A DNA stretch of 64,000 nt from Bacteroidota bacterium. Lineage in GTDB: Bacteria > Bacteroidota > Bacteroidia > Bacteroidales > Lentimicrobiaceae. The position numbers and the translations under genes are program-made. Shown here in pieces: positions 1-24,793 of the stretch. The notes under the pieces are model-generated. The model was not told the DNA's origin. It was given only the letters and a program-made list of their open reading frames with translations, and did no database searches. The stretch covers positions 1-64,000 of the forward strand of contig WSXU01000001.1 in NCBI GenBank assembly GCA_009773455.1, read 5' to 3'. Each line of letters opens with the position of its first letter. The stretch's first letter is position 1.

Positions 1-1218
1 AAAACACAGACCAGCCTGGTGAAAGGTTACCCCACCACCGAAGCCGGATGGATGAAGTTTGATGTAAGTTCTATCCCCGACGGGGCAACCATCAACTCCG
101 TCGAATTTCACGGTTATGTAAATGCCACGAATTATCCCTACTGGAACATCAACCCCGTGACTGTGGACCCGGTTTCAGCAACACCATCGGCCCTTTATAC
201 AGACATCATGGCAGAATCCGCTTCAGGATACTATCTGTACCGAAGCGAAGGTAGCACCTTCAGCACCGGCTGGAAGGTTCATGCACTCACCGGCAATGCC
301 AATGCCAACCTGCAGGCAGCCCTTGCCCAGAACTGGTTTGCCATCGGTATCATGGACAGGGATGCAAGTACCTCTTACTATATAGGGTTCGACGGCTGGA
401 ATGAGGCCAACAAGCCATACCTCGTGATTGATTATACCTATGTTCCACCATACAACTGGCTCACCCTCGACGGCACAGGCAGTGCTTCAGGCACTGTGTT
501 ACCTGCCGGTAACAATCAGATTTCTGTGGGATTCAATGCAGGAAGCCTGGCTGCCGGAACCTACACTGCCGGCATCCGGATTACCAGCAACGACCCGGAC
601 CAGCCGCAGGTGCTCATCCCCTGTACCCTGAACATCTCAAATGATAAAAACCTGAACCTTACCGTGCTGCTTGAAGGCCTCCTGAATGGCCCGGGAACCA
701 TGCGCAAAGCACAGGGAACATCGGGCGATCAGTATCCCGGAACCGTTGCCGACCAGGTAACCGTTGAACTTCGCGAAGCAGCCAATTACAGCAATGTGGT
801 TTATTCTGCCGCCAATGTCAACCTGAATACAGACGGTACAGCCAGTCTTCTGATTCCTGCTGCCAACAGCGGCCCTTACTATGTTACCATAAAACACCGC
901 AACAGCATCGAAACCACCACTGCCCTGCCCCTGTCCTTTGCAGGCGCTGACATTATCTATAACTTCACAACCGCCGCTTCTCAGGCCTATGGCTCAAACC
1001 TGCACCAGGCGGGAAGCAACTTTGTGATTTTTGGTGGCGATGTGAACCAGGACGGTTCGGTTGATACCGGCGATATGACCCCGGTTGACAATGATGCCGG
1101 AAGTTTTGCAGGGGGCTACCTGCCTACCGACATCAATGGCGATGGAACCGTTGATACAGGCGATATCACGGTAATCGACAACAATGCAGCCAGCTTCACC
1201 GGAAAGATCACCCCGTAA
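1..1218 (+). CDS. 3' part of a large secreted protein with dockerin-type tail (truncated by window edge)
   Basis: The reading frame is open to base 1, so the true start lies outside the window; the GTG at 19 is internal. The visible part begins inside a beta-sandwich region (about residues 1-145) that resembles DNRLRE/CBM96-type domains, with its 'KFDVSSIP' and 'YLVIDYTY' motifs. An Ig-like segment of the type common in T9SS cargo follows ('ITSNDPDQP', about 150-208). The last 190 residues are the module shared with three downstream proteins, ending in two calcium loops of the form DxNxDGxxDTGD. No type A T9SS tail is present. The next gene, another protein with the same tail, starts 89 bp downstream. 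It is probably a surface or extracellular protein; its activity lies in the missing part. Confidence 0.8.
   Translation, partial: KTQTSLVKGYPTTEAGWMKFDVSSIPDGATINSVEFHGYVNATNYPYWNINPVTVDPVSATPSALYTDIMAESASGYYLYRSEGSTFSTGWKVHALTGNANANLQAALAQNWFAIGIMDRDASTSYYIGFDGWNEANKPYLVIDYTYVPPYNWLTLDGTGSASGTVLPAGNNQISVGFNAGSLAAGTYTAGIRITSNDPDQPQVLIPCTLNISNDKNLNLTVLLEGLLNGPGTMRKAQGTSGDQYPGTVADQVTVELREAANYSNVVYSAANVNLNTDGTASLLIPAANSGPYYVTIKHRNSIETTTALPLSFAGADIIYNFTTAASQAYGSNLHQAGSNFVIFGGDVNQDGSVDTGDMTPVDNDAGSFAGGYLPTDINGDGTVDTGDITVIDNNAASFTGKITP
646..1218 (+). repeat. Shared C-terminal dockerin-tail module, copy A
   Basis: First of four homologous coding modules of 573-579 bp. Anchor motifs are LNL..LLEGL near the start, YYVTIKHRNSIETT in the middle, GGDVNQDG at calcium loop 1 and DINGDG at loop 2. 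The protein ends GKITP just after the second loop. Confidence 0.9.
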
Positions 1219-1307
1219 ATGACTAAGCCTTAAGAAGGCTATGAACAGGAATCCAAGGAAAGAAATTAATTCATCCGAATAAATAACATTTACCAAATCA
1301 ACGTATC

Positions 1308-4300
1308 ATGAAATTACTTCTTCGAACGGGTTTAATGGCCGTACTATTCCTTACGGTAACCCTTTGCCCGGCTCTTATCCATGCCGGCAACATTCACCTG
1401 AAGACGGGTGACACCAAGGTAAGTCTGACAGAAAACACCTATCAGCGGGTTGCATTCACTTCCTCGTTATCTGACATTGATTTTATAGAAATCAATACTG
1501 TTCAGGGCATGTTTGTAACACTGAATGCCGCCGGATTCGGAAACAGGAACATTGAAGGGGAGCCTGCTTTGCCGGTTTTCCATCGTTTGATTGAGGTTCC
1601 GCTGAGTGCTCAGTATTCAATACGCATCATCAGCCAGCATTTCCAGGAAATCGATCTGGCCGGCAACGGGGTGAATTATCCGGTGATGCCAGCCCAGCCT
1701 CCAATGTCAAAAAGTGATGATCCGGATAAGGTGCCCTTTGTCTATAACAAGGCAGTGTATGACAGAAACAGTTTCATTGAGGATGAACTGATTTCGATCA
1801 GTAATGCAGGATTGATGCGGGCACTCAACCTGGCTAGGGTTGACATTTCGCCGGTTCAGTACAATCCTGTTACCGGCAAACTAAGGGTATATGATGAAAT
1901 TGAATTTGAGATTGTTTTTGAGAACGCCGATATTTACGGAACCATCGCCCTGAAACAATCCAAGTCATCGCCCTATTTCAGGAGTATGTATCAGATGGTT
2001 GAAAACTACAAGCCACTGGGGCCCTCCGATGAATTAATCCCGGCACCGGCAACCTATGTGATCATTTCTGATCCTATGTTTCAGACTGCCCTTCAACCAT
2101 TTATCCAGTGGAAAACAAAAAAAGGATTCAAAGTCATTCAGGGTTACACAAACAATGGAGCAGTCGGTACGACCACTACCTCAATCAAAGCTTACCTGCA
2201 GGGGCTGTACAATTCACCTCCGGCAGGTTACACAGCCCCGAGCTTCGTACTTTTTGTGGGCGACGTAGCCCAGATACCGGCCTGGAGCGGTTCAGCCGGA
2301 TCTCATTACACCGACCTGAGGTATTGTGAGTATACCGGTGACAATCTTCCGGAAGTATATTACGGCAGGTTTTCAGCAACTACAGTTGCCCAGCTGCAGC
2401 CCCAGATTGACAAAACGCTTGAATATGAACAATACCTGATGCCGGATCCGTCATTCCTGAACGAAGTGGTGATGGCTGCAGGAGCGGATGCCAGCTACCA
2501 GACCCACAGTAACGGGCAGATCAATTACGGAACCGAAACCTATTTCAATGCAGCCCATAACATTGTTTCACACACCTACCTGCAACCTGAACCATCCGGC
2601 GGGAATTATTCGACAAACATTCATACCAATGTGTCAAACGGAGTATCCTACGCCAACTATACTGCACATTGCAGTCCGGACGGCTGGGCTGATCCGAGTT
2701 TTACCATCTCAGATATCTCCGGTCTTTCAAATGCAGGAAAATATTCTCTGATGGTTGGAAATTGCTGTCTTTCTGCAAAATTCGATGTAACCAGTTTTGC
2801 TGAAGAGCTTTTAAGAGCCGATGATAAAGGAGCTGTCGGATACATCGGTTGTTCAAACAACAGCTATTGGGACGAAGATTACTGGTGGGGTGTCGGATTT
2901 AAAACAGTTGCACTTCATCCTGCTTACGATGCTGCCCATATCGGTGGCTACGACGGTGCCTTCCACGACCACGGCGAACCCACCAGCGACTGGTTTGTTA
3001 CCCAGGGCCAGATGGTTGTTTGTGGCAACTACGCCGTTGAAGAATCCGGCTCCAGCCGCAAAACCTATTACTGGGAAATCTATCACCTGATGGGAGACCC
3101 TTCCCTGATGATTTACTATTCGGTACCCCAGGCCCTGACGGCAACCTATCAGAGTACCCTCATGATTGGTATGACTACGCTTACGGTCAATACGGAGGCC
3201 TATGCCACCATAGCCCTTTCAAATGGCGGTGTCCTGCTTGATGCGAAAGTTGCCAATGCCAGTGGTGTTGCCAATCTGAGCTTTACAGCCCTGAGTGCAC
3301 CCGGAAACCTGGATATCGTTATCACCAAACAGAACCGGCAACCTCTCATCGGCACCATCCAGGTGATTCCGGCTGCAGGACCTTACGTGGTTTATTCCGG
3401 CAACACAATCAGCGATCCGCTGCCAAACGGTAACAATAATGCAGCGATGGATTATGCTGAAACCAATCTGCTTTCGGTCGCCCTCAATAATGTCGGGGTT
3501 GAAACTGCCTCCAATGTAACGGCAACACTTTCATCTGCTGATTCATATATCACCATCACCGACAATAATGCGGCTTATGGAAACATCGCTCCTGCAGGAA
3601 CGGTAACCATAACAAATGGATTTTCATACACGGTTGCCAACAACATCCCCGACCAGCGTGTGGTGGCATTTACTGTATCAGCAACGAATGGTACCACTAC
3701 ATGGAATTCGAATTTCAACATTACAGCCAATGCTCCTGTTTTGGGCATCGGAGCTATGACGGTTCAGGATAACGGGGCGGGTTGTGACAATGATGGTATC
3801 CTGGATCCCGGCGAAACGGCCAACCTCCTGATTGCCTGTTCCAATTCAGGTCACAGTTCTATATCCAATGTTGCCGGAACACTGGCTATATCGGGCGGAA
3901 CAAGTCCATATCTCACACTCAATTCAACCGGATACAGCCTGGGATCTATGAATGCGGGAGGGTCTGGCACTGCCATCTTCAGTGTGACAGCAAGTGCAGC
4001 AACTCCGCTGGGAACTGCTGTGGATCTTTTATTCACCCTTACCGGTGGAAGTGCAGGACAGTATTCGCTGCAGAACACCAAACAGGTTGTGATCGGACTG
4101 ATACCCGTGTACAACATAACCAACGGTTCGGTGACCACATGTACCGGGCTCTTCTATGATTCAGGAGGAGCTTCAGGAGCCTATCAGAACAATGAGAACT
4201 TTACCGAAACATTTTACCCTGCCTCAGCCGGCGCTATGGTAAGAATGGTATTCAACTCTTTCAATACTGAATCCGGATACGATTACCTGAGAATCTATGA

Positions 4301-6353
4301 CGGAACAAGCACTTCGGCAACACTTATAGGCACTTACAATGGCACCACGGGACCCGGTACTGTAACTGCAAACAATGCAAGCGGAGCGCTCACCATCAAC
4401 TTTACTTCGGATGTGAGTATAACTCCTGCCGGATGGGAAGCCGCCATCAGTTGTTATTCAACGATCGTCCCTACACTTTCGGTAACTCCGGCTAATCAGA
4501 ATGTTACAGCGCCTGCAGGTACTGCTTCGTTCAGCGTTACATCGAATACCGCCTGGAGTGCCACAAGCAATCAGACCTGGTGCACAGTAACACCTTCTGG
4601 TTCGGGTAATGGAACCATTACAGCATCTGTTGCAGCAAATACTTCAGTAACAAGTCGTGTTGCCAATGTTACTGTCACAGTGAGTGGACTCAGCCCGGTT
4701 GTGGTGACTGTTACTCAGGCGGGAGCGACTCCTTCACTGGCAGTTACACCATCAACACAAAATGTCACTGCAACGGCAGGTAGTACGGCATTCACGGTTA
4801 CATCAAACACAGCATGGAGTGTCATCAGCGATCAGACCTGGTGCACTGTGACCCCTACAGGAACAGGCAACGGCTCAATAACGGCTACTTATACCCAGAA
4901 TTTAAATACCTCTTCCAGAACAGCCAACATAACTGTTTCTGCATCCGGTGCTTCTCCGGTTATTGTTACCGTTGTTCAGGCAGGTGTTCCTGCTTCAGAA
5001 TTCCTGCTTTCCATCAGAAACATTCAGCAAACTGCGCCAAACATTTATGAGTTTGATGTTTTCCTGCTTGATGTTGATGGTGCGGCCCCATTCGAACTGG
5101 CAACCATCCAGGAAGGGATCAATTTCAATTTAGGCATCCTGAACGGTGCAGCGACTACGGCCGGAATGACAACCATTGTTCCGGGCTCATCAGAATTGCC
5201 TGCAAATATGGCTCCGATCAGTGTAAGCACTGTCTCAGCCGGCCTCATCAGGGTTGCAGGTCGTGCAGCCCCCGGCGCCGGTAACGGTTACATTATTTCA
5301 ACAGTTTCTCCCGGTACACGCATTGCAAGGCTCAGGATGACAAATTCAGTAAGTTTTGCTCCAAATTCAACTCCGAATATGGTATTCACCTCCAGTGCAG
5401 CAATCACCCCTTCCTATGCGACCAGGATTGCCAAGTATGAAGGTACGGTCAACACACAATTAACCGTTACACCCGGAAGCAATGCGATCGTTGAGGGAAA
5501 CCCGATTCTCTGCGGGCCTCCGGCACTGAGTGTTTCACCGATAAGTCAGTCGGTTTCGGCAGATGCGGGATCATTCGGCTATATTGTTACATCCAATGCT
5601 TCCTGGACAGCCGTCAGCGATCAGACTTGGTGTTCAGTTACGCCTTCTGGTTATGGTAATGGAATCATCACTGCTACCTTTACCCAGAATACAGGCACAC
5701 CACGCTCTGCTAATATTACTGTTTCTGTTGCAGGTCTTCCTGATTTCATTGTTTCCCTGAACCAGGAAGGTATCACCACAAAAACGCTGAATCTGTCTGC
5801 TCTGCTCGAAGGCTTATACAATGGCAACGGAACCATGCGTCAGGCGAGTGATGAAAACGGGGCTCATTTCGGTGCCGGCATTGCTGACCTGATTGACGTC
5901 GAACTTCATAACAGTGCCGACTACAGTATTATTGAACACAGTGCAGCAAATACAGAGCTAAGCACAGCCGGAAACGCAATCGTGAGCATTCCACCGGTAT
6001 TGGGCAACAGCTACTACATCACTGTTAAACACCGCAACTCCATCGAAACCACTTCGGCCAATCCGGTTTCATTCGCCGGACCGGTTATCACCTATGCCTT
6101 TGACCAGCCGGTCAAAGCTTTCGGAGGTAACCTGCTTCAGATGATTGACGGATATTATACCATCTATGGTGGAGATGTGAACCAGGATGGCACCATTGAC
6201 ACAGGTGACGGAACACCGATCGACAATGATCAGTTCATGTTTGTATCAGGATACATTGTGACAGATGTGAACGGCGACGGAACTGTGGATACTGCCGATG
6301 GAACCATTGTGGACAATAACCAGTTCTTCTTCGTAGGAACTTTATTACCATAA
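1308..6353 (+). CDS. Secreted gingipain-family (C25) cysteine peptidase with CUB, BACON, cohesin-like and dockerin-type domains
   Basis: This 1681-residue protein has a signal peptide (about 1-26) and an N-terminal propeptide-like region. The C25 peptidase domain spans about 245-620. The likely catalytic dyad is His454 in 'YTAHC' and Cys486/Cys487 in 'GNCCLSAKF'; aligning on the gingipain motif ACVNGDF favours Cys487. Behind the peptidase lie Ig/CARDB-like repeats (about 690-935), a CUB domain (about 940-1055), two BACON domains (about 1056-1228), a cohesin-fold-like domain (about 1229-1403), a third BACON domain (about 1406-1490) and the shared 190-residue tail. C25 peptidases are classical T9SS cargo, so export by that route is likely, yet no type A sorting domain is visible. 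Specificity for Arg or Lys cannot be read from the sequence. Confidence 0.88.
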   Translation: MKLLLRTGLMAVLFLTVTLCPALIHAGNIHLKTGDTKVSLTENTYQRVAFTSSLSDIDFIEINTVQGMFVTLNAAGFGNRNIEGEPALPVFHRLIEVPLSAQYSIRIISQHFQEIDLAGNGVNYPVMPAQPPMSKSDDPDKVPFVYNKAVYDRNSFIEDELISISNAGLMRALNLARVDISPVQYNPVTGKLRVYDEIEFEIVFENADIYGTIALKQSKSSPYFRSMYQMVENYKPLGPSDELIPAPATYVIISDPMFQTALQPFIQWKTKKGFKVIQGYTNNGAVGTTTTSIKAYLQGLYNSPPAGYTAPSFVLFVGDVAQIPAWSGSAGSHYTDLRYCEYTGDNLPEVYYGRFSATTVAQLQPQIDKTLEYEQYLMPDPSFLNEVVMAAGADASYQTHSNGQINYGTETYFNAAHNIVSHTYLQPEPSGGNYSTNIHTNVSNGVSYANYTAHCSPDGWADPSFTISDISGLSNAGKYSLMVGNCCLSAKFDVTSFAEELLRADDKGAVGYIGCSNNSYWDEDYWWGVGFKTVALHPAYDAAHIGGYDGAFHDHGEPTSDWFVTQGQMVVCGNYAVEESGSSRKTYYWEIYHLMGDPSLMIYYSVPQALTATYQSTLMIGMTTLTVNTEAYATIALSNGGVLLDAKVANASGVANLSFTALSAPGNLDIVITKQNRQPLIGTIQVIPAAGPYVVYSGNTISDPLPNGNNNAAMDYAETNLLSVALNNVGVETASNVTATLSSADSYITITDNNAAYGNIAPAGTVTITNGFSYTVANNIPDQRVVAFTVSATNGTTTWNSNFNITANAPVLGIGAMTVQDNGAGCDNDGILDPGETANLLIACSNSGHSSISNVAGTLAISGGTSPYLTLNSTGYSLGSMNAGGSGTAIFSVTASAATPLGTAVDLLFTLTGGSAGQYSLQNTKQVVIGLIPVYNITNGSVTTCTGLFYDSGGASGAYQNNENFTETFYPASAGAMVRMVFNSFNTESGYDYLRIYDGTSTSATLIGTYNGTTGPGTVTANNASGALTINFTSDVSITPAGWEAAISCYSTIVPTLSVTPANQNVTAPAGTASFSVTSNTAWSATSNQTWCTVTPSGSGNGTITASVAANTSVTSRVANVTVTVSGLSPVVVTVTQAGATPSLAVTPSTQNVTATAGSTAFTVTSNTAWSVISDQTWCTVTPTGTGNGSITATYTQNLNTSSRTANITVSASGASPVIVTVVQAGVPASEFLLSIRNIQQTAPNIYEFDVFLLDVDGAAPFELATIQEGINFNLGILNGAATTAGMTTIVPGSSELPANMAPISVSTVSAGLIRVAGRAAPGAGNGYIISTVSPGTRIARLRMTNSVSFAPNSTPNMVFTSSAAITPSYATRIAKYEGTVNTQLTVTPGSNAIVEGNPILCGPPALSVSPISQSVSADAGSFGYIVTSNASWTAVSDQTWCSVTPSGYGNGIITATFTQNTGTPRSANITVSVAGLPDFIVSLNQEGITTKTLNLSALLEGLYNGNGTMRQASDENGAHFGAGIADLIDVELHNSADYSIIEHSAANTELSTAGNAIVSIPPVLGNSYYITVKHRNSIETTSANPVSFAGPVITYAFDQPVKAFGGNLLQMIDGYYTIYGGDVNQDGTIDTGDGTPIDNDQFMFVSGYIVTDVNGDGTVDTADGTIVDNNQFFFVGTLLP
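5781..6353 (+). repeat. Shared C-terminal dockerin-tail module, copy B
   Basis: Second copy, at the end of the C25 peptidase. It keeps LNL..LLEGLYNG, YYITVKHRNSIETTSANPVSF, GGDVNQDG and DVNGDG. The second loop reads DTADG instead of DTGD, and the protein ends GTLLP. Confidence 0.92.
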
Positions 6354-6357
6354 ACCA

Positions 6358-6397
6358 TCAGGTCCAAAGCGGGTATTATTTCCTGCTTTGGACCTGA
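6358..6397 (+). other. Strong hairpin after the C25 peptidase gene
   Basis: A perfect 13-bp inverted repeat (TCAGGTCCAAAGC / GCTTTGGACCTGA) starts 4 bp after the stop codon. No T-run follows it, so it is not a canonical intrinsic terminator. It may stabilise the mRNA 3' end or act with the terminator at 6558. Confidence 0.6.
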
Positions 6398-6557
6398 TTA
6401 CCTATCATCTGACACCATTGTAGTAAATATAATCCTGGTCAGGATCATTGGATTGAGGCAAAACCGGGTGTAAACACTGCGGAAAGACATCAGACCCGGA
6501 CGAGCTCATGACAAAAGCTGTCAGCGGGATTCATTCTCCGGAAATTTTTTTCCTGTT

Positions 6558-6597: not shown

Positions 6598-6962
6598 GCA
6601 CTGTAACCACCATTTTCAAAAAAGATTACTCTTCAAAGCAACCTGATTGCGGGCTTTTTCAATAAAACTGAGTGAATGAACAGTAGGGTTGAGCTAAGTA
6701 CTTGCATATTCATACATGTACTTATGAACTTTTGTATATATTATTTGTTTCCAATAATTACCGCCTTAGCTCTGCACAACAGAGTACCTCCCGGGAAGGC
6801 GAACTATCATCCTGCTTCATACATTTCGGATTACTCAGAAAAATAATACAAAGCCTCTGACACTGCCGGTTTATTCTTCCACATCTCTTTTGCCTTCTGG
6901 TTTTAATCATTGAAAATTGTTGAATATATCAACCCTGTTTGTATTTATTAACCTGGAACAAC
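6598..6962. other. Intergenic leader of the PKD/GEVED giant gene
   Basis: No gene is seen here. The stretch is AT-rich with several near-matches to the Bacteroidota -7 element (around 6735-6750), but none fits TAnnTTTG exactly. The promoter of the next gene is presumably in this interval; I cannot place it. Confidence 0.4.
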
Positions 6963-9900
6963 ATGAGAGCAAGATTACTACTTCTGGTTGGAATGTGTTT
7001 AGCATACGCCAGCGTCTCCGGAACCGGACTCCGGAATACCATTAGAAATCAGGAATACATCTCCACGGAGAAAACTTCTGACAGGTCAGTTGCAAAATCG
7101 GATCAAGCAGCTGTATTGAGTCTTCCATTGCAAAATAAATTCCTCTATTGGCAAAAAGAGGTGGAACAGGCCTATGCAATGGCCGGACGCCTGGATGCTG
7201 ACAAGCCATGGCAGGTGGACGCAGATCTTTATCTCTCGCAGAGTTGTTGTCCCGATTTTATTTTAAAGGATGCTGTTGAGATTTGTCCTCCCGATGGCGC
7301 ATGTATCGGAAGCACCCGCCCTGATCAGGGTGGGCTGGGACGTGCAGCGGCGGCATGTAAAAACACCCCGCACACGTATACGGTTTACCCGAACGATCCC
7401 TCCTATACTTTTACCTGGACCATTACCGGTGGTTCACCGGCCTCATATACCGGAAATCCAGTCAACATTGTCTGGGGTTCCGGTGCAACCGGAATCATCA
7501 AGGTGGTAATCAGCAACCTTGCCATGGGTGGATCCTGCATCGATTCCATCACCCGGGAGTTCTGCCTGATCGACGGGCCTAAAGCGGATTTTACGGTTTC
7601 CCCGGATACGGTTTGTCAGAATACCCCTGTTAATTTCACCAATACATCCCTTGGCGGAAGCGTATTTTTCTGGGATTTCGGCGATGGCACCACTTCAACA
7701 CTGGCCAGCCCTCCGCCCCACTCCTATGCTTTGCCGGGCAATTACACCGTACTTTTGAAAGCAACCGATATGGGTGCCGGTCATCCGGTTGGCACGGGTC
7801 AGGGAGGTGAGGCAGTAGTAGCATGCGGTTGCAGCGATACTGCCACCATGCAGGTTGTTGTTCTTGCTGGTACCGGTCCTGAAATTGTTTACGATTGCTG
7901 TTTCGGCACTGTCTGCGCCGGAGATACATCATCCTTCTGTACACCTATGGTCTGTGGCAGTTATAACTGGACTGTAACCGGGGGATCAATCATTTCGGGC
8001 AACAACACCAGTTGTATAAAAATCAAATGGAATCCAGCCTATACAGGCCCGACTACCGTTAGCCTGCAAAGTTGCCCTTCATCGTCGTGTCAGGGAATTA
8101 CCACACTGGACGTGCCTGTTTTATACCCGAATCTGCCGATCAGCGGCCCTTCAACTGTTTGTGTGGGTTCGTCCGGAAGCTTCTCTCTCCCCTGGATGCC
8201 GGGAACCTATTATACCTGGTCGGTAAACGGCCCGGGATTATATTCATTCAACAAAAAAGACAGAAACGTTACCACGGCAAGCATTACCTTCAATAACCCG
8301 GGCCTTTACTGGGTAAAATGTGTTTACAACAACCCGCTTGCCGGTTGTAATGGTGTCGACTCAATTCCTGTGAATGTGTTGCCCATCTTTAACATTACCG
8401 GAGATGAAACCGTTTGTGAAGGAAGTTCAATACAATACTATGCGCCGGTGCCGGCAAACTGGTCAGTTTCACCTCCGGGCCCTGTTATTTCCGGGAATGG
8501 CTCTCCTATAGCGACCATTCAGTGGACACCTGGCAACTATGTAATTACAGCCGTATCGCTCATTCCGAATGTCTATTGCAACGACACCGCCTATCTGAAA
8601 GTCAAGGTTATAGCCAAACCCATCCTTGGCAGCATTCAGGGTACAATGACAGCATGTCCGGGTAGCAAACACACTTTCAGTATATCTTCAAATACCAGTG
8701 GCAGTGATTTCATCTGGCCGGCTTCGCCGGGAGTAAATGTACTCTCGGAGATGGGGTCAGATAACGATTCAATTGTTGCTCAGTTGAATGGCCCCGGCCC
8801 CTGGCAGATCAGTGTATATCAGAACGTTGAGATCAGTCCTGGAAACTTCTGCCCGTCACTGACACAAATTCTGAATATAAGTCCTTATCCCACCCCTGTG
8901 ATCACTGGAACAACCACAGTCTGTGTTGATGCTGTGGTTCAGTATACCGCAAGCGGCCCAATGCCTCCGGGTGGATTCACATGGACAATATTACCTTCAA
9001 ACAGGGGAACCATACAATCGGGACAGGGAACCAATACAGTGAACATCCAGTGGCACGGACCACCAACAACAGCGGCCCTCTCAGTATCGCATTGTTCCGG
9101 AAGTTTTACACTTGGTATTACCATTAACACCCCACCTGTTGCTCTGGCAACCTACAATATGCTGCCTGTGTTCTGCCTTGGCGACAACCAGGTTCTGACC
9201 CTATCAACACCCTCCGGTGCAGGATATTCCTATCAATGGTATCTGAACAACACGCTTTTACCGGGACAAACCAACAATACACTAAACATCAACATTGCCA
9301 GCCTTGCGCTTGGTGTTCACCAGTATCATGTTGTGGTGACGCTGAACGGATGTTCTATAAAATCTAATATTGTTAATGTCAAAATTGAGAGTTGCAACCC
9401 AGGAGGACCCGGTGGATGTGATGTCATTGCCAATTTCTGGACCTACCCGGTTTGCGATACCGTATTCCTGGTTGATCAGTCAACGGTTACCCCACCGAAC
9501 ACCATAGTCCTCTATCAATGGTCTGTTTCCGGTCCGGGGTCAGGCAATTTCTTCCCAAATGCCAATGCACCCAATCCTTACCTGACTGTCAGCGCTTCAG
9601 GACAATATACCGTAACACTTACGGTTACTTCGTCATCAAGCTGCACCAGCACCTTCTCATCGATCGTAAACATCTTACTGCCCAATGCTTCTTTTACTTT
9701 TACATCGCCTGTATGCCAGAACTCTCCGGCCACTTTCAATGCCATACCAAATAATCCGGCGTTTAATTATGCCTGGACTTTTGGTGACGGAGCCACTTCG
9801 TTTCTGGCCGCGACCCAGCATGCCTATGATAATACAAGCCCGCCTTCTGATACCGTAATTCTTGTAATTACAGACCAGATGGGATGTATCGCCAGGGACA

Positions 9901-12900
9901 CCAACTACGTAAATGTCGACCCGTTGCCTGTTTGCACCATCACTGCCTCTGATACCATATTCTGCCCCGGTAGTTCCGTGACCCTGACGGCATGTAACCT
10001 GATGACAGGCTATCAATGGTATAAGAACGGCAATGCCATCCCGCTTGCCACTGCTCAAACCTATAGCGTAACGCAACACGGTGAGTATTATGCCTCAGTC
10101 ACCAACAGCTTCGGTTGTTCTGATAAAACCAACAGCCTTTATATTTACATGCATAAGATTCCAAAGGCAAAAATAAAAGGCAACGGTTATGTTTGTGCCT
10201 CACCAGGAGGAACTGCCTATTTTAATCTGACGACCGTTTTTGATTCAGCCTATATATACAGTTGGGGCAGTAATCCTCCGGGAGCCGTCTTCACTCCGGG
10301 AACCGGCAATTCGCCCTGGGTTACCCTCACTTTACCCTTAACCTTACCTGCTGTCTTTGATTTCTTTGTGAATGTAACCGACACAATCACCGGTTGTACT
10401 GCAACGGATACGCTTTGTATCTGGTTCTATGAAACACCTTCATTTACATTACCAACCCTCAATATCTGCGAAGGCACGAGTACCGTTATTTCACCCTCTC
10501 CGGTAAATCCTGCATTGTTCGATTATCTGTGGAATACCGGGCAAACAACTCCTTTTATTACAGCATCCTCACCGGGCTTCTACAGCCTCACGGTAACCAA
10601 CAAATCTACAGGATGTGATGCCACCATGAATGCAGGTTTTATTTTCGCAAAACCCGATCTGAGCCTGTTCCCCCTGGGTTGCGATTCCATCTGTGATACG
10701 GATACACTGAATCTTTACATTCCGCTTCCGCTGAATGCCGTTGCACCTTACAACACTTACCCGACAGCCTACCCATCCATCACCTGGTATGAAACCTCGA
10801 ACTGGGGAACCCCATTAGGTTATGGTGAGAATCTGCCATTCTCCTCGAATGTCACGGGTAATTACCAGATAGCAGTTGTTGTTTCCAACAACTTTAATTG
10901 CGTAGATACTGCAGGGGTTTTCTGCCTGAAAGTAAAAAACTGTCCGCCTTATTACGGAACCGATTTCGGGGATGTACCTGATGACGATGTGCTGCCGGGA
11001 GATTTTCCGACTTTGCTGGCAAGCAATGGTGCAAGGCATCTGATAGCCCCCGGTGTATTCATGGGTTCAATGGTGGATCCTGAAACCAATGGCCAGCCAA
11101 GTTTCATGGCCGTCTGCGATGACAACGATTGTATAGTTTCACTGGGTGACGATGAAGATGGCGTAACCATGCCTCCGAATGTCACCCAGGGCTCATCGGT
11201 TTCAATCACTGTTGTGGCTTCTGTCAACGGATTCCTCGATGCCTGGATGGACTTTAACCTGAACAGCGACTGGTCAGACCCGGGTGAGCATATTTTTATC
11301 AACCAGGCGCTTTCTGCCGGCTCCAATACACTGACAATGAACATCCCGGCTGCAGCCGGTCCCGGACTATGCTATTCCCGCTTCCGGTTCAGGACAACCA
11401 ACAATCCGATTAACTTCTTCGGCCTGGAATCTGATGGTGAAGTAGAGGATTATGCCATTCACATTGATCCTGTTTCAAACGGTGAGAAGGATTTTGGTGA
11501 TGTGCCCGATGATCCCGGAAACCCGAATGATTATCCAACCTATCTTTCAGGCAATGGCGCACGCCACAGCATCAACCCTTTGATTTTCCTGGGATCGAAA
11601 ATTGATGCTGAAGGTGACGGTCAACCGACGGTGATTGCCGATGGTGATGATTTGAACGCCTCTGACGATGAGGATGGTATAACGATGCCAGCTGTGGTGA
11701 TTCAGGCTTCAACTGTTAACCTGAACGCAACGGCTTCTGTAGCCGGATTCCTCGATGCCTGGATCGACTATAACGTGGATGGCGACTGGGCAGATGCCGG
11801 TGAGCAGGTTTTTGCCGGACAGCCACTGACTGCCGGATTAAACGCATTATCGTTCATAGTGCCGGTCACCGTTAGCATGGGACCTTCCTACGCCCGTTTC
11901 CGGTTCAGGACCAGCAGTGCTCCGATCAGTTATGACGGCCTGGTTGCCGATGGTGAAGTGGAAGACTATGCTGTATATGTTGAGCAGGTTGCCGGTGGTG
12001 AATTCGACTTTGGCGATGCCCCTGATAATCCTGAAACCTCACACTACTATCCGACCCTGCTGGCCAACAATGGCGCACGGCACAATATCTCCCCCAATAT
12101 TTATATGGGTAGTTTTGTTGATCCTGAAATCAACGGCCAGCCTTCCATCGGTGCCCGGTGCGATGATGTGGATTGCTTCTATCCTTCACTGGGTGATGAT
12201 GAAGACGGAGTGACCATGCCTCTGACCGTAAATCAGGGTGCAACAGTACCGTTTTCGGTGGTAGCATCAGTCAATGGTTTCCTGGATGTATGGGCTGATT
12301 TCAATATTGATGGCGACTGGGCCGATGCCGGTGAGCACATTTTTGTTAACCAGGCCCTTACTGCCGGTCTCAACAACCTGAACTTCAGCGTACCTGTCAA
12401 CGCCACCATCGGCGCGACCTACCTCAGGTTCAGATTCAGGACTTCACCAGCAGCAATCAGTTATGACGGACTGGTGCTTGACGGAGAGGTGGAAGACCAT
12501 ATGCTGACAATTGTTTCCGGCCAGCAGGAAAGTCTTGATTTTGGAGATGTGCCTGATAATCCGGGTAATCCCTCTGATTTCCCCACACTGCTTGCAAGCA
12601 ATGGAGCCAGACATAGCATTGTTCCGGGCATCTTGCTTGGAACCCTGATTGATGCTGAAGCCAACGGTCAGCCTGCTGCCCTGGCCGATGGAGACGATTT
12701 GTCCAATACCGACGACGAAGATGGTGTAACCATTCCATCTGTCGTTTATGTGGGCACCACAGTCTTTATCAATGTTACAGCTTCTGTCTCCGGGTACCTT
12801 GATGCCTGGATCGATCTCAACGGAAACGGTATCTGGGGTGCGGGAATCGAACATATTTTCACCAATCAGGCCGTAAGTGCCGGGTCCAATTCCCTTTCAT

Positions 12901-16011: not shown

Positions 16012-17955
16012 ATGTATAACAGCATCAGATATTTAGCCATTTCTCTTACCCTGTTGCTTTCAGGCGGACCTCTAACAGCTCAGGATGCAAAAGATTTCGC
16101 CAGGCGTCATTTAAAAGGCCTGTCTGACCAACAACAGGCAGATTCACTCCTCAGGATGAGTGAAAATTATGCCGAAGAGAACCCTGACACTGCCTTGTTT
16201 CTTGCAAATATTGCTTTAAATATCTGCGAAAAATCGGAGAACAGGGAGCTATTACCTGAAGCATCTTTCAGAATAGCGGAAGCCCATTTCTATATGGATG
16301 AATATCAGAAGGCTATTGAATATTATAATAAAGCAGCTTCCGATGAATACAAGATCAAAAAAGATTCAACCGGATTTCTTGCCGACATGTTGAGCTATTC
16401 TGCATTGTGTTACCAGGAACTGGGTCTGAGTGAAAAAGCGCTCCAACTGAATATGACTGCACTCAAAATAGTGCAGAAATTAAACATCGCCAAACAGATC
16501 GGAGATGTGTTAAACAACATCGGAACCAACTATTTCAGCTTATCAATGTTTGATAAAGCCATTGAGTATTACAGCAAAACACTGGAACTTGACAGGAAAT
16601 CAGGTGATTCATCTGCGCTGTCCATTTCATTGAATAACCTGGGCTTGGTTTACAGTCGCTGGGGAAAGCATCAGGAAGCCATCAGATTTTATGATGAAGC
16701 CCTGGGATATACAACAGATGAAGTAAAGAAATCAATCCGGTTCAGTAAGATCGGGATGACATGGTATCATCTGAAAGACTATGATAAAGCACTTGAGTAC
16801 CTTCATCTGGCATTGAAGATAGCTTTGAAATATAACCAGGAAATCAAGATTGGTATCCGGAAAAATGAGATCAGTACGGTATTGGTAGCCAAAGGTAATT
16901 ATACTGAGGCACTCCGGCTGAACGAAGAAGCGCTCGGCATATTCAGAAAGGCAGGTATCATTGAATCACAGATAATTACCCTGTCTGATATGGGAAATAT
17001 TTTCAGAAAACTGGGGCAAACGGAGAAAGCCGAACAATGTTTCCTTGAAAGTGCAGCCCTTGCCGAAAAAAGTCAATCACTTTATCATCAGGCAAGAAAT
17101 TTCAAAAACCTTTGTGATTTGGCCGAAGCAGAGGGGGACTATAAGAAAGCGCTTGGCTATTTCAGGAAGTACACTGCAGCTCAAGATTCTGTTTTCAACA
17201 TTGAAAAGCACAGACAACTTGCGAATTTTGAGATCCTTTACGAAACAGATAAGAAAGAAAAGGAAAATCAACTGCTTCAGCTCGATCTTAAATTAAAACA
17301 AAGGAACCAACGGCTGGGCATTTCCATTATCATTGGTCTTATCCTGGTTCTTTTACTGATTTACAGCCTGCTCAGGGTAAAATCGAAGAATCTTAAACAG
17401 AATCAGCTACTGTTCAGTCAGGAACAGGCTTTGGCAAGGTTGGAAATAGAAAACAAGGAAGCCGAAAACAGGATGCTCAGCGACAGGGTTTTTGCAGAGC
17501 AGCAGATCAACCGTCTTGAAAGGGAGAAATACCAGGCAGAAATTGACCATAAGAATGCTGAGTTGGCCAGTTCAACGATTTGCCTGGTGAATAAAAATGA
17601 GATTCTCGGTGAAATCCGCGAAAAACTGAAAAACAATCATCACGCTGATAACATCCACGAAGTGGTTCAGTTTATCAATTCCAATACCGACATTGATCAG
17701 GATTGGCTGAAGTTCAGGACTACCTTCGAAAATGTCCACCCCGGATTCTTCGACCGTCTGAAACAGGACTTCCCTCAGCTGACCGATCACGACATCAGGC
17801 TCTCCTCCTATCTGAGAATTAATCTGAGTTCACGAGAGATCGCCGGGCTGATGAACGTATCGCTTGAGGCAACGAATAAAAGCAGGCAGAGACTTCGCAA
17901 GAAACTAAACCTTGAAGCAGAAGCCGACCTTACTTCCTTCCTCGTTTCTATGTAA
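16012..17955 (+). CDS. Membrane TPR protein with C-terminal LuxR-like helix-turn-helix (putative signal-transducing regulator)
   Basis: At 647 residues this protein has an N-terminal signal peptide ending 'PLTAQ', about six to seven tetratricopeptide repeats (about 40-400), one membrane helix near 433-455 ('GISIIIGLILVLLLIYSLL') and a long coiled coil (about 460-540). The C-terminal segment (about 590-647) reads like a LuxR/GerE-type helix-turn-helix: 'LTDHDIRLSSYLRINLSSREIAGLMNV' in two parts, followed by a basic recognition helix. This layout, with periplasmic TPRs and a cytosolic DNA-binding end, is a known Bacteroidota one-component sensor type. It sits between giant surface-protein genes. 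Control of these or of the small gene downstream is inferred from position only. Confidence 0.8.
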   Translation: MYNSIRYLAISLTLLLSGGPLTAQDAKDFARRHLKGLSDQQQADSLLRMSENYAEENPDTALFLANIALNICEKSENRELLPEASFRIAEAHFYMDEYQKAIEYYNKAASDEYKIKKDSTGFLADMLSYSALCYQELGLSEKALQLNMTALKIVQKLNIAKQIGDVLNNIGTNYFSLSMFDKAIEYYSKTLELDRKSGDSSALSISLNNLGLVYSRWGKHQEAIRFYDEALGYTTDEVKKSIRFSKIGMTWYHLKDYDKALEYLHLALKIALKYNQEIKIGIRKNEISTVLVAKGNYTEALRLNEEALGIFRKAGIIESQIITLSDMGNIFRKLGQTEKAEQCFLESAALAEKSQSLYHQARNFKNLCDLAEAEGDYKKALGYFRKYTAAQDSVFNIEKHRQLANFEILYETDKKEKENQLLQLDLKLKQRNQRLGISIIIGLILVLLLIYSLLRVKSKNLKQNQLLFSQEQALARLEIENKEAENRMLSDRVFAEQQINRLEREKYQAEIDHKNAELASSTICLVNKNEILGEIREKLKNNHHADNIHEVVQFINSNTDIDQDWLKFRTTFENVHPGFFDRLKQDFPQLTDHDIRLSSYLRINLSSREIAGLMNVSLEATNKSRQRLRKKLNLEAEADLTSFLVSM

Positions 17956-17991
17956 CATATTGATTTTATTATCTTTAGGATATATTTTCGT

Positions 17992-18037: not shown

Positions 18038-18077
18038 ATAGATCATACATTTGCTCTGACGCAAATACCTTGCATTA

Positions 18078-18359: not shown

Positions 18360-18415
18360 TTAACCCTGACAAACCGAATATTCAGATATCCAATAAACAG
18401 AACAAAACCGTAGTT

Positions 18416-21400: not shown

Positions 21401-24400
21401 GATAAGATAGCCATTTCGTGGGATGCCAGTCCGGGGGCCTCACATTACCAGGTTTACAGAAGTACTGCAGGCAACCCACTCATTGTAATAAGCGGGCCGA
21501 CGTGGATAAGCAACACCATGTTCGAAGATACAGATGTTCTGCAGGGCACAACCTATACATATTACATCAAGGCAGCCAAAAGTCAGTTTGGAAGCAATGA
21601 ATCAGAAATGAGCGCCGGCGATGCAGGTTGGGAAGCCTTTGCAACCGCCCCCACGGCTACCGCCAGTGATGGCCTTTACACCAACCGCATTGCGGTTACG
21701 TGGAATACAGTTCCATCGGCCACCCATTACATGCTTTACCGTTCCACTTCAAATATTCCCAACAATGCCTCGCCCATCACTGCATGGCAAACTGCCAGCA
21801 ACTATACCGATTATGGAGCAAATACCGGAATCACTTATTATTACTGGGTTAAGGCATCTATGGATGCAACAGGTACGGTAACCACCGGTCTGGGCCAGAT
21901 GGATCAGGGTTACAGGAATTTCAATGCTCCCTCCGGTGTTTCAGCAACCGATGGAACCTCAACGACCGGAACCGTTGTAACATGGAACATCGTGTCGGGG
22001 GCGACCTGGTACAGGGTAAACCGGGGTACATCTTCCAATTTCACAACATCCAGACCAATCGGGAACTGGGTTAATACCCTGTCGCTCACCGATGTATCAG
22101 GAAATCCGGGCACGTTGTATTATTATTGGGTTGCCTGTTCAAACGACACCGCGTATATGGCCAGTGCGTTCTCAAGCTCCAATACAGGCTATAAACAGAT
22201 CATCGCACCGGTTACCCAGGCAACCGATGGCTATTACGCCGACCGGGTTGAAGTTACATGGCAGGCAGTAGCAGGAGCAGCCTACTACCAGATTCAGCGA
22301 AGTCCTGTTTCAGACCCCGGCAACCTGACAACCCTGGCTCCGTGGAGCAATACCCTGGGGTTCACCTATGCCGATAATACAGCTGCTTATCAACAGGAAT
22401 ACCTGTATTTCGTGACCGGCTCAGGCAATGCCAGCGGCTTAAGGCCTGGTAATCCCGGCTCTGATCAGGGAAGCGCTGCATCCTGTATTAACCTCGTTGA
22501 TATGCCTGCATTCAGGAGTATATACTTTCACGGCACTACCCTCGATATTACGCAGCAAGTGATGAATGAAGGGCCTTATCCTATGATGAGTTCGTCGACC
22601 ATAGCCTATGCCATTGAAAGTGATCCCGCAGGCGGCAGTCCTGAAGCAATCATTGGAACCACAACCATTCCCCCTCTGGCTCCAGGGGAAGTATATACAG
22701 TTTATTATCAGGTTAACCTGGATACAGTGAACGGTTTCAATCTGACCTACGGTACCTGGTACCTTGGGTGTTACACTGCATGGGACAGCGGGAACTGCGA
22801 CCACAATCCGTCAGACGACTATATCCTCTGGCAGGACCCCAATTTCACCTATACCGACGCTCTTCACGGTATTTATACCGTTGGCCCGGGTGCCTGTGAT
22901 TATCCAGACCCTGATGCTGCTTTGAGTGCACTTAAAGCCAGAGGTATATCCGACAACACCATTTTCTATCTCGAACCCGTGGTTTTCTATCAGCAACTTG
23001 CATTCACCAGCATTCAGGGAACGGAATTCCAGCGGAAAATTATCTTTAAAACCAACCCGGCTTATACCGACACAGCAGAAATCAGGGGTATTCCAACACC
23101 TGAGGCGAACTATACCCTGTTTTTCCAGAACTGCAACAACCTGTCATTCACCAATCTGAAAATATCAACCTCCGGGGCTTCTGACTTTGAATCAACTTAT
23201 GGACGGGTAATTTCTATCGGACCCGGGTGTTCAGATCTCAGGTTCAGGTACAATCACATTGAAGGATATACCGATGTATCCCACGGAGGTACCGACAATA
23301 TACCCATATATAGTCAGAGCCCGCAGAATAACCTGCTGATTGACAACAATGTGATCACAAATGGCTGGCTTGGCATTTACTTATCAGGCAGACAAGCCAA
23401 CCCCATTTCCGGCTTTACCATCAGCAACAACCGGATAGAGAACTTCTACACAAGAGGCATCAGCTTACATGAAACGGCAGATTTCGTGATCACTGGTAAT
23501 ACGGTCAGCACCTCAAACAATACTTCAGTCGGCCTTACGGGGATAGACCTTGGAAATAGCAGGGGTGGTTTCGATTGCAGCAGAAACCACATCATGCTCA
23601 GTTCCTCTACGGGTTCCATATACGGCCTGATCTCATCCGATGTGGACCTGGTTGATGGTCATACTCGGCGAATCACCAACAATTTCATCTCCTGCTCCAC
23701 AGAATCGGTTACCAATGCCGGAATTAACCTCGGTACAAATATGAACACCACGGTTGCCCACAATTCAGTTCATGTATATGGTAACTCCGGTATATTGAGC
23801 TACTGTATCCAGATCCATTCATTTGCTTCAGCGCCTGACTTTAACAACAAGCTATTCAACAATATTCTGGTGAACACAGCAGGTGGCAGTGGATTAAACT
23901 ACTACCATAATAATTTAAATTTCAATCTTTTAAATCAGAGTGACTACAATAATATTTATACCAGTTCTGGCACTCTGATCAGCTACGGACAGGACAACTT
24001 CACCAGCCTGTCATCATGGAATGCAGCTACCGGTTTTGACCAGCATTCATTGTCGGTTTCACCAGAATTCCTTACTGAAACCAATCTTCACTGCAACAGT
24101 CCACTACTTGACGGAGCCGGAATCTATCTGCCTGAAGTGGCCTGGGATATGGATAATGAACCGCGTTCAACCGTCAACCCGGATATAGGAGCCGATGAAT
24201 TCTCCTTTGTTTCTTTACCGAAAACCCTGAATCTTGGTGTTCTGCTGGAAGGCTTGTATAACGGGCCCAACACACTGCGGCAGGCCAACGATGAAAACGG
24301 GCCCCGTTTCGGCGCAGGCATAGCCGATCAGATTGCCGTTGAGCTTCGAAGTGCTACAGATTATAACAATGTGGTCCATTTGGCCGATCATGTCAATCTG

Positions 24401-24793
24401 AGTACCAGTGGCCTTGCATCACTCACATTCCCATCATCCCTCAACGGATCCTACTATGTTACCGTCAGGCACCGCAACAGTATCACAACAGTTTCGGCCA
24501 ATCCTGTCCACTTCATTACAGGAACCATATCCCACTCATTCAATTCACCTGCCACTGCCTATGGCGGCAATATGCTTCTGATGATCACAGGACAATATGT
24601 TATCTATGGCGGCGATGTGAATCAGGATGGCTCGGTGGATACCGGAGATATGACCCCGGTTGACAATGATGCAGCAGCCTTTGCTTCAGGCTATCTTACC
24701 ACGGATGTAAATGGCGACGGAACCATTGATACGGGAGATATTACCATTATTGACAACAATGCGGCTTCATTTGTGGGAGCGGTGACACCATAA
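18416..24793 (+). CDS. Giant secreted BNR/VPS10-like propeller, FN3 and beta-helix protein with dockerin-type tail
   Basis: This 2125-residue protein has a signal peptide (about 1-23). The first ~760 residues contain at least six Asp-box/BNR motifs (such as 'NNGTSW', 'DGGQTW', 'NGGNSW', 'DFGQTW', 'DGGSSW', 'DMGTTW'), the signature of sortilin/VPS10 or sialidase-type beta-propellers. A CARDB-like segment is followed by five FN3-like repeats (about 885-1350) and a second CARDB-like segment. A right-handed parallel beta-helix of NosD/pectate-lyase type covers about 1480-1925, with many 'I.NN.I' rungs. The shared tail starts at 1936. No catalytic residues of a glycoside hydrolase or lyase could be assigned with confidence. 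It is probably a polysaccharide-binding or -processing surface protein; this is inferred from domain types. Confidence 0.85.
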   Translation: MKTRVKLFHILALLLSTVVCNGQESSDTPFIPVDTNMEYWISRSREVNPDFRKIADDFKSYWAGKKPVKGTGYKQFRRWLESQKAYLNPDGSVRLPQEDLENAINYNLQYSSGQIQGNWTYAGPFQPIMRDDGTPVAAGGRVTSIGFSPHDSQKIFAGAPLGGLWVSNNNGTSWQNLNTDSIATLGVSAIAVHPTNPDIIYFGTGDRDAYNTAGKGVYKSIDGGQTWVAKPFSVHYNKVVCKILFHPVNYERLVAACNTGIYVTTNGGNSWTRKLNVAIKDMDQKPGDSTLYAVSDNSFYKSTDFGQTWVLTKTTLAHRIAIGTTPDNPEKVILFTSRDSKFYRIFESTNSGDNFFIKTTTGISDNDGQGWYNLDLVVDPEDENIMYSGMVSFYKSTDGGSSWVRQEDVYASDQHIFEFSPQTHRLFIGNDAGMWFSDNGTDYTFSSNGLNITEIYYMDVAAQNANHIIIGNQDAGTFVTTGGPSYRCIGGDGMTCKIDYSDNNYIYGTWQEGNFLRSVNGTVPGPDFALIAAENQNGINQSGNWQSAFLLDYSNTNRMFVGMRDIWRSNNIKEPDGNDIFWYNISNGALGEGASIEFIEQSRVDGQILYVFTDQQRIFRTTNAYAITPEWTELVNPTASYDVKFESHPTEASTVYMVCGQKVYKSIDMGTTWNDISVDLPPIGMLSLAYMNGSNEGLFLGTTAGVYYKEADMEDWVPFKTGIPLTKVRDMVINYSTTPAQLFASTYGRGIWKTNVLTSFLPDLLANSGSTTLNATTMSAVAGIQNLNTMTGIPELTSGFYLSSNNIIAGGDYLIRQNTHTNVGPGLIFQSQMPATDLALVQPEIPSGTYYFGFLADNIYNVNEYNENNNMWVSPTQIVIPVNPATAENVQATDGSFSDRTTITWQDNSGEILYYAVFRATIGIPALAQQISPATWLSQLWFNDVTAANGVTYYYFVKTSRYPDGSRASEFSGYDAGFRRLSPPGNVMATDGLYSDKIAISWDASPGASHYQVYRSTAGNPLIVISGPTWISNTMFEDTDVLQGTTYTYYIKAAKSQFGSNESEMSAGDAGWEAFATAPTATASDGLYTNRIAVTWNTVPSATHYMLYRSTSNIPNNASPITAWQTASNYTDYGANTGITYYYWVKASMDATGTVTTGLGQMDQGYRNFNAPSGVSATDGTSTTGTVVTWNIVSGATWYRVNRGTSSNFTTSRPIGNWVNTLSLTDVSGNPGTLYYYWVACSNDTAYMASAFSSSNTGYKQIIAPVTQATDGYYADRVEVTWQAVAGAAYYQIQRSPVSDPGNLTTLAPWSNTLGFTYADNTAAYQQEYLYFVTGSGNASGLRPGNPGSDQGSAASCINLVDMPAFRSIYFHGTTLDITQQVMNEGPYPMMSSSTIAYAIESDPAGGSPEAIIGTTTIPPLAPGEVYTVYYQVNLDTVNGFNLTYGTWYLGCYTAWDSGNCDHNPSDDYILWQDPNFTYTDALHGIYTVGPGACDYPDPDAALSALKARGISDNTIFYLEPVVFYQQLAFTSIQGTEFQRKIIFKTNPAYTDTAEIRGIPTPEANYTLFFQNCNNLSFTNLKISTSGASDFESTYGRVISIGPGCSDLRFRYNHIEGYTDVSHGGTDNIPIYSQSPQNNLLIDNNVITNGWLGIYLSGRQANPISGFTISNNRIENFYTRGISLHETADFVITGNTVSTSNNTSVGLTGIDLGNSRGGFDCSRNHIMLSSSTGSIYGLISSDVDLVDGHTRRITNNFISCSTESVTNAGINLGTNMNTTVAHNSVHVYGNSGILSYCIQIHSFASAPDFNNKLFNNILVNTAGGSGLNYYHNNLNFNLLNQSDYNNIYTSSGTLISYGQDNFTSLSSWNAATGFDQHSLSVSPEFLTETNLHCNSPLLDGAGIYLPEVAWDMDNEPRSTVNPDIGADEFSFVSLPKTLNLGVLLEGLYNGPNTLRQANDENGPRFGAGIADQIAVELRSATDYNNVVHLADHVNLSTSGLASLTFPSSLNGSYYVTVRHRNSITTVSANPVHFITGTISHSFNSPATAYGGNMLLMITGQYVIYGGDVNQDGSVDTGDMTPVDNDAAAFASGYLTTDVNGDGTIDTGDITIIDNNAASFVGAVTP
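21063..22460 (+). repeat. Five fibronectin-III-like repeats in the BNR/beta-helix protein
   Basis: Repeats are marked by 'ATDG' or 'ASDG' near 21089, 21380, 21660, 21943 and 22218, a period of 275-291 bp. Each carries a 'VTW......A.YY.(V/I)(Y/N/Q)R' strand pair and most carry a 'G..YYYWV' strand. Confidence 0.85.
24221..24793 (+). repeat. Shared C-terminal dockerin-tail module, copy D
   Basis: Fourth copy, at the end of the BNR/beta-helix protein. It keeps LNLGVLLEGLYNG, YYVTVRHRNSITTVSANPVHF, GGDVNQDG, DVNGDG and the end GAVTP. Confidence 0.92.

Follow-up and report, generated by a model that had tools for sequence, protein, structure and literature searches.

The first 64 kb of contig C49, from a Lentimicrobiaceae genome of 4.8 Mb in 159 contigs within the phylum Bacteroidota, raise a question of attachment: four proteins of quite different architecture end there in one and the same module of about 190 residues. 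What is this module, and what might it plug into? By its predicted structure, it is an X-module-dockerin dyad ('X-dockerin'), in which an immunoglobulin (Ig)-like X-module is packed on a two-loop calcium dockerin. The tail is real, widespread and so far unnamed, a known fold in an unexpected setting, and the same genome encodes candidate partners for it in the form of cohesins. The modules and their carriers are listed below, in coordinates of the whole 64-kb stretch ('the window'); the helix classes named there (QF and AA) are described further on.

1..1218, plus strand: open reading frame (ORF) of a DNRLRE-like protein, N-terminally truncated, whose C-terminus is module 1
646..1218, plus strand: X-dockerin module 1; X-module about 646-1035, dockerin about 1036-1215, stop codon 1216-1218; own-genome profile E value 6.9e-101
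1308..6353, plus strand: C25 (gingipain-family) peptidase, cargo; propeptide, C-terminal Ig domain, CUB, BACON, C-terminal X-dockerin
5781..6353, plus strand: X-dockerin module 2; X-module about 5781-6170, dockerin about 6171-6350; QF-type helices in both repeats
6939..15737, plus strand: PKD/GEVED/DUF7901 protein of 2932 residues, cargo; C-terminal X-dockerin; TTG start, with an in-frame ATG at 6963
15159..15737, plus strand: X-dockerin module 3; X-module about 15159-15554, dockerin about 15555-15734; QF/SF-type helices
18416..24793, plus strand: Sortilin-type BNR protein of 2125 residues, cargo; C-terminal X-dockerin
24221..24793, plus strand: X-dockerin module 4; X-module about 24221-24610, dockerin about 24611-24790; AA-type helices; the sequence modelled by AlphaFold

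Four shared modules had been proposed in a first-pass annotation of the window, and their positions hold: all are in frame, and a stop codon follows immediately upon each. With identities of 51, 53 and 58% between modules 2-4 and module 1, and 68 invariant columns out of 192, chance resemblance is excluded. As a set, however, the four fall far short of the 28 matches found in the genome, and the claim that each module ends within a few residues of its second calcium loop proved wrong, the stop lying 17 residues beyond that loop with the second helix (residues 171-182 of the model described next) in between. The first carrier lacks its N-terminus because base 1 of the window is base 1 of the contig; its DNRLRE-like match scores 20.9 bits, under the Pfam cut-off of 34, and the fn3, CARDB and beta-helix matches in the Sortilin-type BNR carrier are likewise under the Pfam cut-offs.

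The assignment of the fold comes from an AlphaFold2 model of the 190 residues of module 4, computed with an input alignment of 85 modules drawn from the window and related loci only. The model is a single unit, with a mean pLDDT (predicted local distance difference test) of 97.8 and a predicted template-modelling score (pTM) of 0.92, and consists of a beta-sandwich followed by two loop-helix units, whose helices span residues 141-152 and 171-182. A Foldseek comparison with the PDB gave 10 matches at E<=0.001, every one of them an X-module-dockerin or cohesin-X-module-dockerin (Coh-X-Doc) chain of cellulosomal complexes; the alignments run over the whole length (192-200 columns for 190 residues), at 13-16% identity, root-mean-square deviations (rmsd) of 4.8-6.0 and template-modelling (TM) scores of 0.50-0.56 by query and 0.35-0.66 by target. 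These whole-length matches rule out a new fold, and the new class suspected in the first-pass annotation turns out to have a fold already known, that of the X-module-dockerin dyad of cellulosomes. A profile search of PDB sequences led to dockerins as well, including several X-dockerin chains, with weak scores (best E 1.2e-4).

Both features of such a dyad can be recognised: two tandem calcium loops, each with a following helix (from the model and a sequence pattern), and an Ig-like X-module that forms a single packed unit with the dockerin (from the model, and for the ‘HRNS’ subtype only). A second, ‘HRNH’ subtype would share the fold, judging from the alignment. In 23 of 25 modules of the genome and in 67 of the 85 aligned modules, both calcium loops conform to a loose sequence pattern. 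When those 85 were scanned, Pfam Dockerin_1 covered only the last 50 or so residues, in 65 of them, while no convincing Pfam or NCBIfam model was found for the X half; the remaining matches were weak and scattered, with one to four members each. As an observation apart, two HRNH-type modules of genome G014 (L197:6406-7434 and 7657-9009) have a last loop, VNMNGQVKYSGSxNDRSVIL, that is unlike the calcium loops of the window, and which perhaps holds another metal or none.

The module had also been described as strictly C-terminal, and this is borne out well beyond the window. A profile built from the four window modules accounts for the 28 copies in the genome, two of which (L034 and L035) are cut by contig ends; in all 26 uncut copies the profile match stops 0-3 residues before the stop codon, and in one of these (L029) the N-terminal part lies in another frame. 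A search for related loci returned at least 80 outside the genome, in records named Bacteroidales, Lentimicrobium, Lentimicrobiaceae, Marinilabiliales, Bacteroidetes, Ignavibacteria, Chitinophaga or Chitinophagaceae. The 112 module matches in 80 such loci comprise 103 that end within 10 residues of the stop, 3 at 11-40 residues, 4 internal copies (L118, L143, L148 and L149) and 2 that are cut, so that 103 of 110 uncut copies lie at the very end of their proteins. After three of the internal copies (L118, L143 and L148) comes a stretch that contains a G(F/V/I)CW motif, and the L143 protein ends in SVRCIKD, much as ORFs adjoining the L093 module gene end in SVRCVKD and SVRCLKD. A hydropathy scan, used in place of a signal-peptide program, identified a hydrophobic N-terminal stretch of signal-peptide type in most carriers with an intact start; the L092 carrier has none at the start used.

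Candidate partners are plentiful in the same genome. The Pfam Cohesin model gives 12 matches, 8 of them above its cut-off, and a profile of cohesins from this genome and its relatives (A6) gives 16 matches in 13 proteins, twelve of which are listed below, the thirteenth being cut by the contig end. Cohesins are a candidate for the partner family whose existence the first-pass annotation had put up for testing, and some of them are fused to the module itself. Searched against cohesins of the PDB, A6 matches several kinds, with a best E of 3.8e-10. The cohesin proteins carry tails of several sorts, among them those of types A and B, two of the three types of sorting signal (A, B and C) described for the type IX secretion system (T9SS) in PMC10202324:

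L079:2585-4651: cohesin protein with a type A tail, over both the Pfam and the NCBIfam cut-off
L077:13124-15166: cohesin protein with a type A tail; Pfam 31.9, over 27; TIGR04183 22.4, under 23
L079:8150-10132: cohesin protein with a type A tail; TIGR04183 27.8, over 23; Pfam 23.1, under 27
L081:3-2222: cohesin protein with a type B tail over cut-off; cohesin just under the Pfam cut-off
L082:9066-14075: cohesin protein with a type B tail, also scoring as type A; cohesin just under the Pfam cut-off
L194:2166-3464: cohesin protein with a type B match below threshold (20 bits, threshold 35)
L077:10614-13064: cohesin protein with a tail matched by no NCBIfam or Pfam model
L079:10575-12587: cohesin protein with a tail matched by no NCBIfam or Pfam model
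L077:9246-10352: cohesin immediately followed by the module
L079:12749-13438: cohesin immediately followed by the module; truncated at the contig end
L080:8350-10707: cohesin immediately followed by the module
L089:8364-11456: cohesin immediately followed by the module

Several of these genes lie together. In cluster C26 (L077), two proteins of two cohesins each, one of them type A-tailed, adjoin a Coh-X-Doc protein, and in cluster C23 (L079) three cohesin proteins are followed by a Coh-X-Doc gene. The 80 other loci hold eight ORFs with a cohesin, six of which also have the module. For one natural Coh-X-Doc protein, of a Lentimicrobium metagenome-assembled genome (L140:5512-6576), a model was obtained with a pLDDT of 81.3 and two segments below 50; its best Foldseek matches are four scaffoldin chains with the same order of domains (4fl4 and 3kcp, which we take to be the Coh-X-Doc end of CipA), at E values of 5e-11 to 2.5e-10. 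In another class of the same phylum, genome G078 encodes a protein that combines two Pfam cohesins with the module; two genes further along lies the gene of a cohesin protein bearing a type A tail (Por_Secre_tail), and all these matches exceed the Pfam cut-offs.

Taken together, these data probably reflect a cell-surface assembly in which the X-dockerin is the plug: cargo such as the C25 peptidase, adhesin-like and amylase-like proteins would dock on cohesin scaffolds displayed by the T9SS. Cargo would leave the cytoplasm by Sec and dock by its C-terminal X-dockerin onto cohesins; the type A or B tails of some cohesin proteins would secure their display at the outer membrane, and the cohesin proteins that end in an X-dockerin would serve as adaptors, as in cellulosomal scaffoldins. 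The basis of this reading lies in the predicted fold and its match, the C-terminal position, the cohesins of the same genome with their fusions to T9SS tails and to X-dockerins, and an exchange of tails between paralogues. From these we infer the binding, its dependence on calcium, the fit of dockerin and cohesin classes, the surface location and the crossing of the outer membrane by the cargo. For that crossing, the X-dockerin may be read by the T9SS, or the cargo may be carried with a cohesin protein, or it may take another route.

The genome encodes SprA, and T9SS type A tails are matched in it at least 150 times. The first of these routes leads to an unlikely but serious competitor, in which the module is itself a T9SS sorting signal beyond types A, B and C, its X-module being read by the translocon or by a shuttle and its dockerin kept for anchoring, with cohesin binding secondary or limited to some lineages. 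The strict C-terminal position would suit such a signal, as would the replacement of the module by a type A tail in paralogues, the existence of module genomes with no detectable cohesins, and the fact that the scanned carriers, Coh-X-Doc adaptors included, show no other outer-membrane signal. The available text of PMC12618676 describes T9SS signals as Ig-like seven-strand sandwiches, and that of PMC10202324 has type B signals requiring more than 200 residues.

The distribution of the T9SS bears on the same point. In a sample of 296 phylum genomes with a completeness of 90% or more, about 10-13 candidates were scored per genome, and counts per genome are lower bounds; a broader module profile covering the HRNS and HRNH subtypes (A5) found 49 genomes at E<=0.001, of which 42 are robust and seven weak ones (G230, G045, G178, G289, G030, G116 and G258, with best E values from 2e-6 to 1e-3) were set aside. 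SprA is present in all 42 robust genomes, as against 185 of the 254 others, and robust modules are absent from all 69 SprA-negative genomes; the co-occurrence with T9SS genes, suggested as a check in the first-pass annotation, is thus found in this sample. With weak hits included, the count is 48 of 49, the exception being G230 (module E 2.1e-5). The SprA-negative genomes appear to cluster phylogenetically: among the 20 of the 69 that were listed, 16 come from one family (f18), and for that reason the association is not independent evidence.

Further observations speak against the module as a sorting signal in its own right. A known T9SS sorting family is excluded for the four window modules and the four full-length proteins, neither of which are matched by the type A, B or C models of NCBIfam (TIGR04183, TIGR04131 and NF033708); the absence of a type A tail, asserted in the first-pass annotation, is therefore upheld. 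Among the 85 aligned modules a single one matches the type A model, at E 0.016. The predicted structure matches a docking domain over its whole length, with both calcium loops kept, by the loose pattern, in nearly all of the genome's own copies, and four of the 110 uncut copies elsewhere are internal. To our knowledge, the X-dockerins described so far come from Gram-positive bacteria, which have no T9SS.

The second route, carriage with a cohesin protein, would have the cargo bind a T9SS-tailed cohesin protein in the periplasm and the complex cross the SprA pore, so that the cohesin protein served as carrier and anchor at once. This would account for tailless cargo side by side with type A and B tails on cohesin proteins, yet it is improbable: the carrier would have to bring along cargo as long as 2932 residues, Coh-X-Doc adaptors would have to cross as a chain, and the scheme fails in genomes without cohesins. 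No precedent is known to us. The word ‘piggyback’ does not occur in the available text of the review PMC10202324.

On the question whether the module has a partner at all, the order to which the genome belongs offers some evidence. In a sample of 99 genomes, nearly one per family, with modules scored at E<=1e-6 and cohesins by A6, cohesins were found in 8 of 9 module genomes and in 20 of the 90 others (Fisher p 1.3e-4); with two weak module hits added, the figures are 8 of 11 and 20 of 88 (p 0.0016). Within the order, the association of cohesin and module is clear, and one genome (G334) has at least 33 modules and at least 26 cohesins. That it holds at nearly one genome per family speaks against a dockerin-like tail that binds calcium but has no partner, being just a structural cap that recombination has spread among paralogues, as do the direct fusions of cohesins to the module and the agreement of helix classes between the two dockerin repeats. 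Contigs do end inside module copies, which marks these as repeated sequence that may recombine; such a cap is nonetheless the least probable of the explanations considered.

A number of points also weigh against docking on T9SS-displayed cohesins. We know of no outer-membrane route for cargo with a Sec signal only. The PDB cohesins that score best with A6 are, we presume, of type I, whereas the tail resembles a type II dyad, and the model of the L140 Coh-X-Doc protein matches 4fl4 and 3kcp in domain order only (TM about 0.3, rmsd 18-20). Across the phylum, a Pfam cohesin is present in 27 of 42 module genomes against 71 of 254 others (p 1e-5), or against 69 of 185 when only SprA-positive genomes are compared (p 0.0018); against 46 hand-picked, family-matched, SprA-positive, module-free genomes, the association vanishes (27 of 42 versus 24 of 46, p 0.28), and it is not relied on as proof. 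Fifteen of the 42 module genomes lack a Pfam cohesin, and in a single one of these does A6 detect a cohesin; A6 matched none of 17 control genomes negative for both the module and the Pfam cohesin, and its sensitivity is incomplete, G294 having a Pfam cohesin and no A6 match. Within the order, 10 modules and no cohesin were found in G340, and 25 modules with one weak cohesin in G361; G156 and G236 are further module genomes counted as lacking cohesins. Genomes with many modules and no detectable cohesins favour a function independent of cohesins there, or else cohesins too divergent for both profiles. Conversely, 20 genomes of the order have cohesins and no module, among them G388 with at least 41 and G300, of the same genus, with 8; other dockerins must therefore exist. 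In G388, a genome without a match to the module profile A2, many of the cohesins lie in two giant reading frames, 6522 and 8081 codons long (on its contigs C23 and C2); these may be very large scaffoldins, which would have to use other dockerins.

If docking on cohesins does occur, the helices that follow the calcium loops may carry a specificity code. They read DNDQFxF/DNNQFxF in one class (QF) and DNDAAxF/DNNAAxF, or similar small residues, in the other (AA), and by an aromatic criterion the class of the two repeats agrees in 23 of 25 modules of the genome. Such agreement is as expected of a two-fold symmetric binding face, to which relatedness would also contribute. The adaptor of cluster C26 is of the AA type; that of C23 is cut before its dockerin, and its X-module resembles, by eye, that of a QF-type copy (L024). 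The prediction is that the cohesins of C26 serve the AA class and those of C23 the QF class. A broader proposal can be offered only tentatively, namely that there is a cellulosome counterpart coupled to the T9SS, in which X-dockerin tails constitute a further outer-membrane export and anchoring signal, read by the T9SS or carried by T9SS-tailed cohesin proteins, by which peptidases, adhesins and amylases are plugged into cohesins in two helix-coded classes.

Pfam scans of 23 of the 28 module ORFs identified, besides the C25 peptidase, C39-like peptidase fragments, PKD/GEVED, BACON, CUB, Sortilin/BNR and fn3 domains and one alpha-amylase match. Cellulase families and CBM3 were absent from these ORFs and from five cohesin proteins with other tails, to which the search was confined, and on that ground the assembly is not a cellulosome in the enzymatic sense. 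Two adjacent paralogues, L094:8543-10156, which ends in an X-dockerin, and L094:10518-14183, which ends in a type A tail, have 72% identity across 347 positions, covering the first protein except for its tail; beyond the shared part, the second has BACON-like repeats and its type A tail (TIGR04183, 35.8 bits). Similarly, the cohesin proteins starting at L079:12749 and L079:2585 share a cohesin end (50% over 156 residues) and differ in their tails. From these two pairs it follows that an X-dockerin can take the place of a T9SS tail on the same kind of protein.

Among known systems, the closest in structure is the type II X-dockerin dyad of cellulosomal scaffoldins (CipA/ScaA and CipB; 2b59, 3kcp, 4fl4, 5g5d, 5m0y and 4wi0), with which the module shares a whole-length fold, the C-terminal position and, in L140 and four proteins of the genome itself, the Coh-X-Doc order of domains. 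It differs in sequence (13-16% identity, with an X half lacking a convincing Pfam or NCBIfam match) and in use: tens of cargo proteins carry the dyad here, in place of mainly the scaffoldin, the host has an outer membrane, and the anchors are T9SS tails where those of cellulosomes are SLH domains. In the known dyads, the Ig-like X-module is thought to stabilise the dockerin, which binds cohesins of surface-anchored scaffoldins (PMC5141474); docking of that kind is known there and would have its counterpart here. T9SS C-terminal domains of types A, B and C resemble the module in being C-terminal, on exported proteins of the same genome, and in that type A replaces it in a paralogue; they show no sequence match to it, and the module, at about 190 residues with EF loops, is far longer than the NCBIfam models (72, 85 and 55).

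The nearest precedent found is the cellulosome-like complex proposed for Ca. Stygibacter of the phylum Cloacimonadota, which, in the available text of PMC8542988, likewise has dockerin-tailed enzymes, a C25 peptidase among them, and a cohesin scaffoldin that has a conserved C-terminal domain for surface attachment. It belongs to another phylum and has a single scaffoldin of 3,755 residues with CBM2/CBM3, and that text makes no mention of an X-module; here there are several small anchors and adaptors, together with a dyad tail. Within the Bacteroidota, the titles and abstract openings searched, a partial coverage of the literature in which an earlier mention may have been missed, describe no X-dockerin tails. 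The novelty, so far as these searches show, lies in the X-dockerin as a common tail in a T9SS-bearing genome, the fold itself being known. PMC3534657 reports cellulase genes of Melioribacter without dockerin and scaffoldin domains. According to PMC5831590, no cohesins or dockerins were found, in line with other Bacteroidetes genomes; against this stand 28 X-dockerin tails and 16 cohesins in one genome. They suggest that a T9SS phylum employs modular assembly in the manner of the cellulosome to display proteins of many kinds on its surface, they give an unnamed 190-residue domain a fold and a testable candidate partner, and they raise the question of how proteins without a T9SS tail reach the surface.

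One further gene of the window had been taken to strengthen the case, by the clustering of modules with a regulator:

16012..17955, plus strand: TPR protein with a C-terminal HTH-like end, between two module genes; distant homologues occur near some other module genes (a weak link)

This argument has lost most of its force. Homologous TPR-HTH genes lie near module genes in only 4 of 35 genomes, one such homologue is 28% identical to the window protein, and genes of this type are common in Bacteroidota. The idea of a conserved neighbouring gene as the partner was likewise set aside, after clustering of 470 neighbouring ORFs of 34 record prefixes and the genome itself, one representative of each of the 25 largest clusters being named by eye. 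No PorP-like family was seen by eye among these 25, a PorP profile not having been run. The largest cluster (20 ORFs from 13 genomes) has a cohesin protein with a type A tail as its representative, and the second, from 7 genomes, a protein whose end is type A-like; others comprise sensor kinases and cohesin scaffolds (5 genomes each) and TPR-HTH regulators, an ABC-type ATPase and response-regulator-like proteins (4 genomes each).

Several contigs end in or beside module genes: at base 1 of the window, at the end of L084 (C38), at the start of L085 (C4) and at the ends of L034 and L035. The peptide EDYNINIL is common to the end of C38 and the start of C4, and at least seven module genes may therefore form one cluster. 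Contigs C73 and C23 both run out within an identical stretch of the module. At L088 (C148), paralogous module genes at 7135-8628 and 13477-14520 (the latter with L029) are 74% identical before the tail, and the frame change near the start of the module in the second is either a broken gene or an assembly error.

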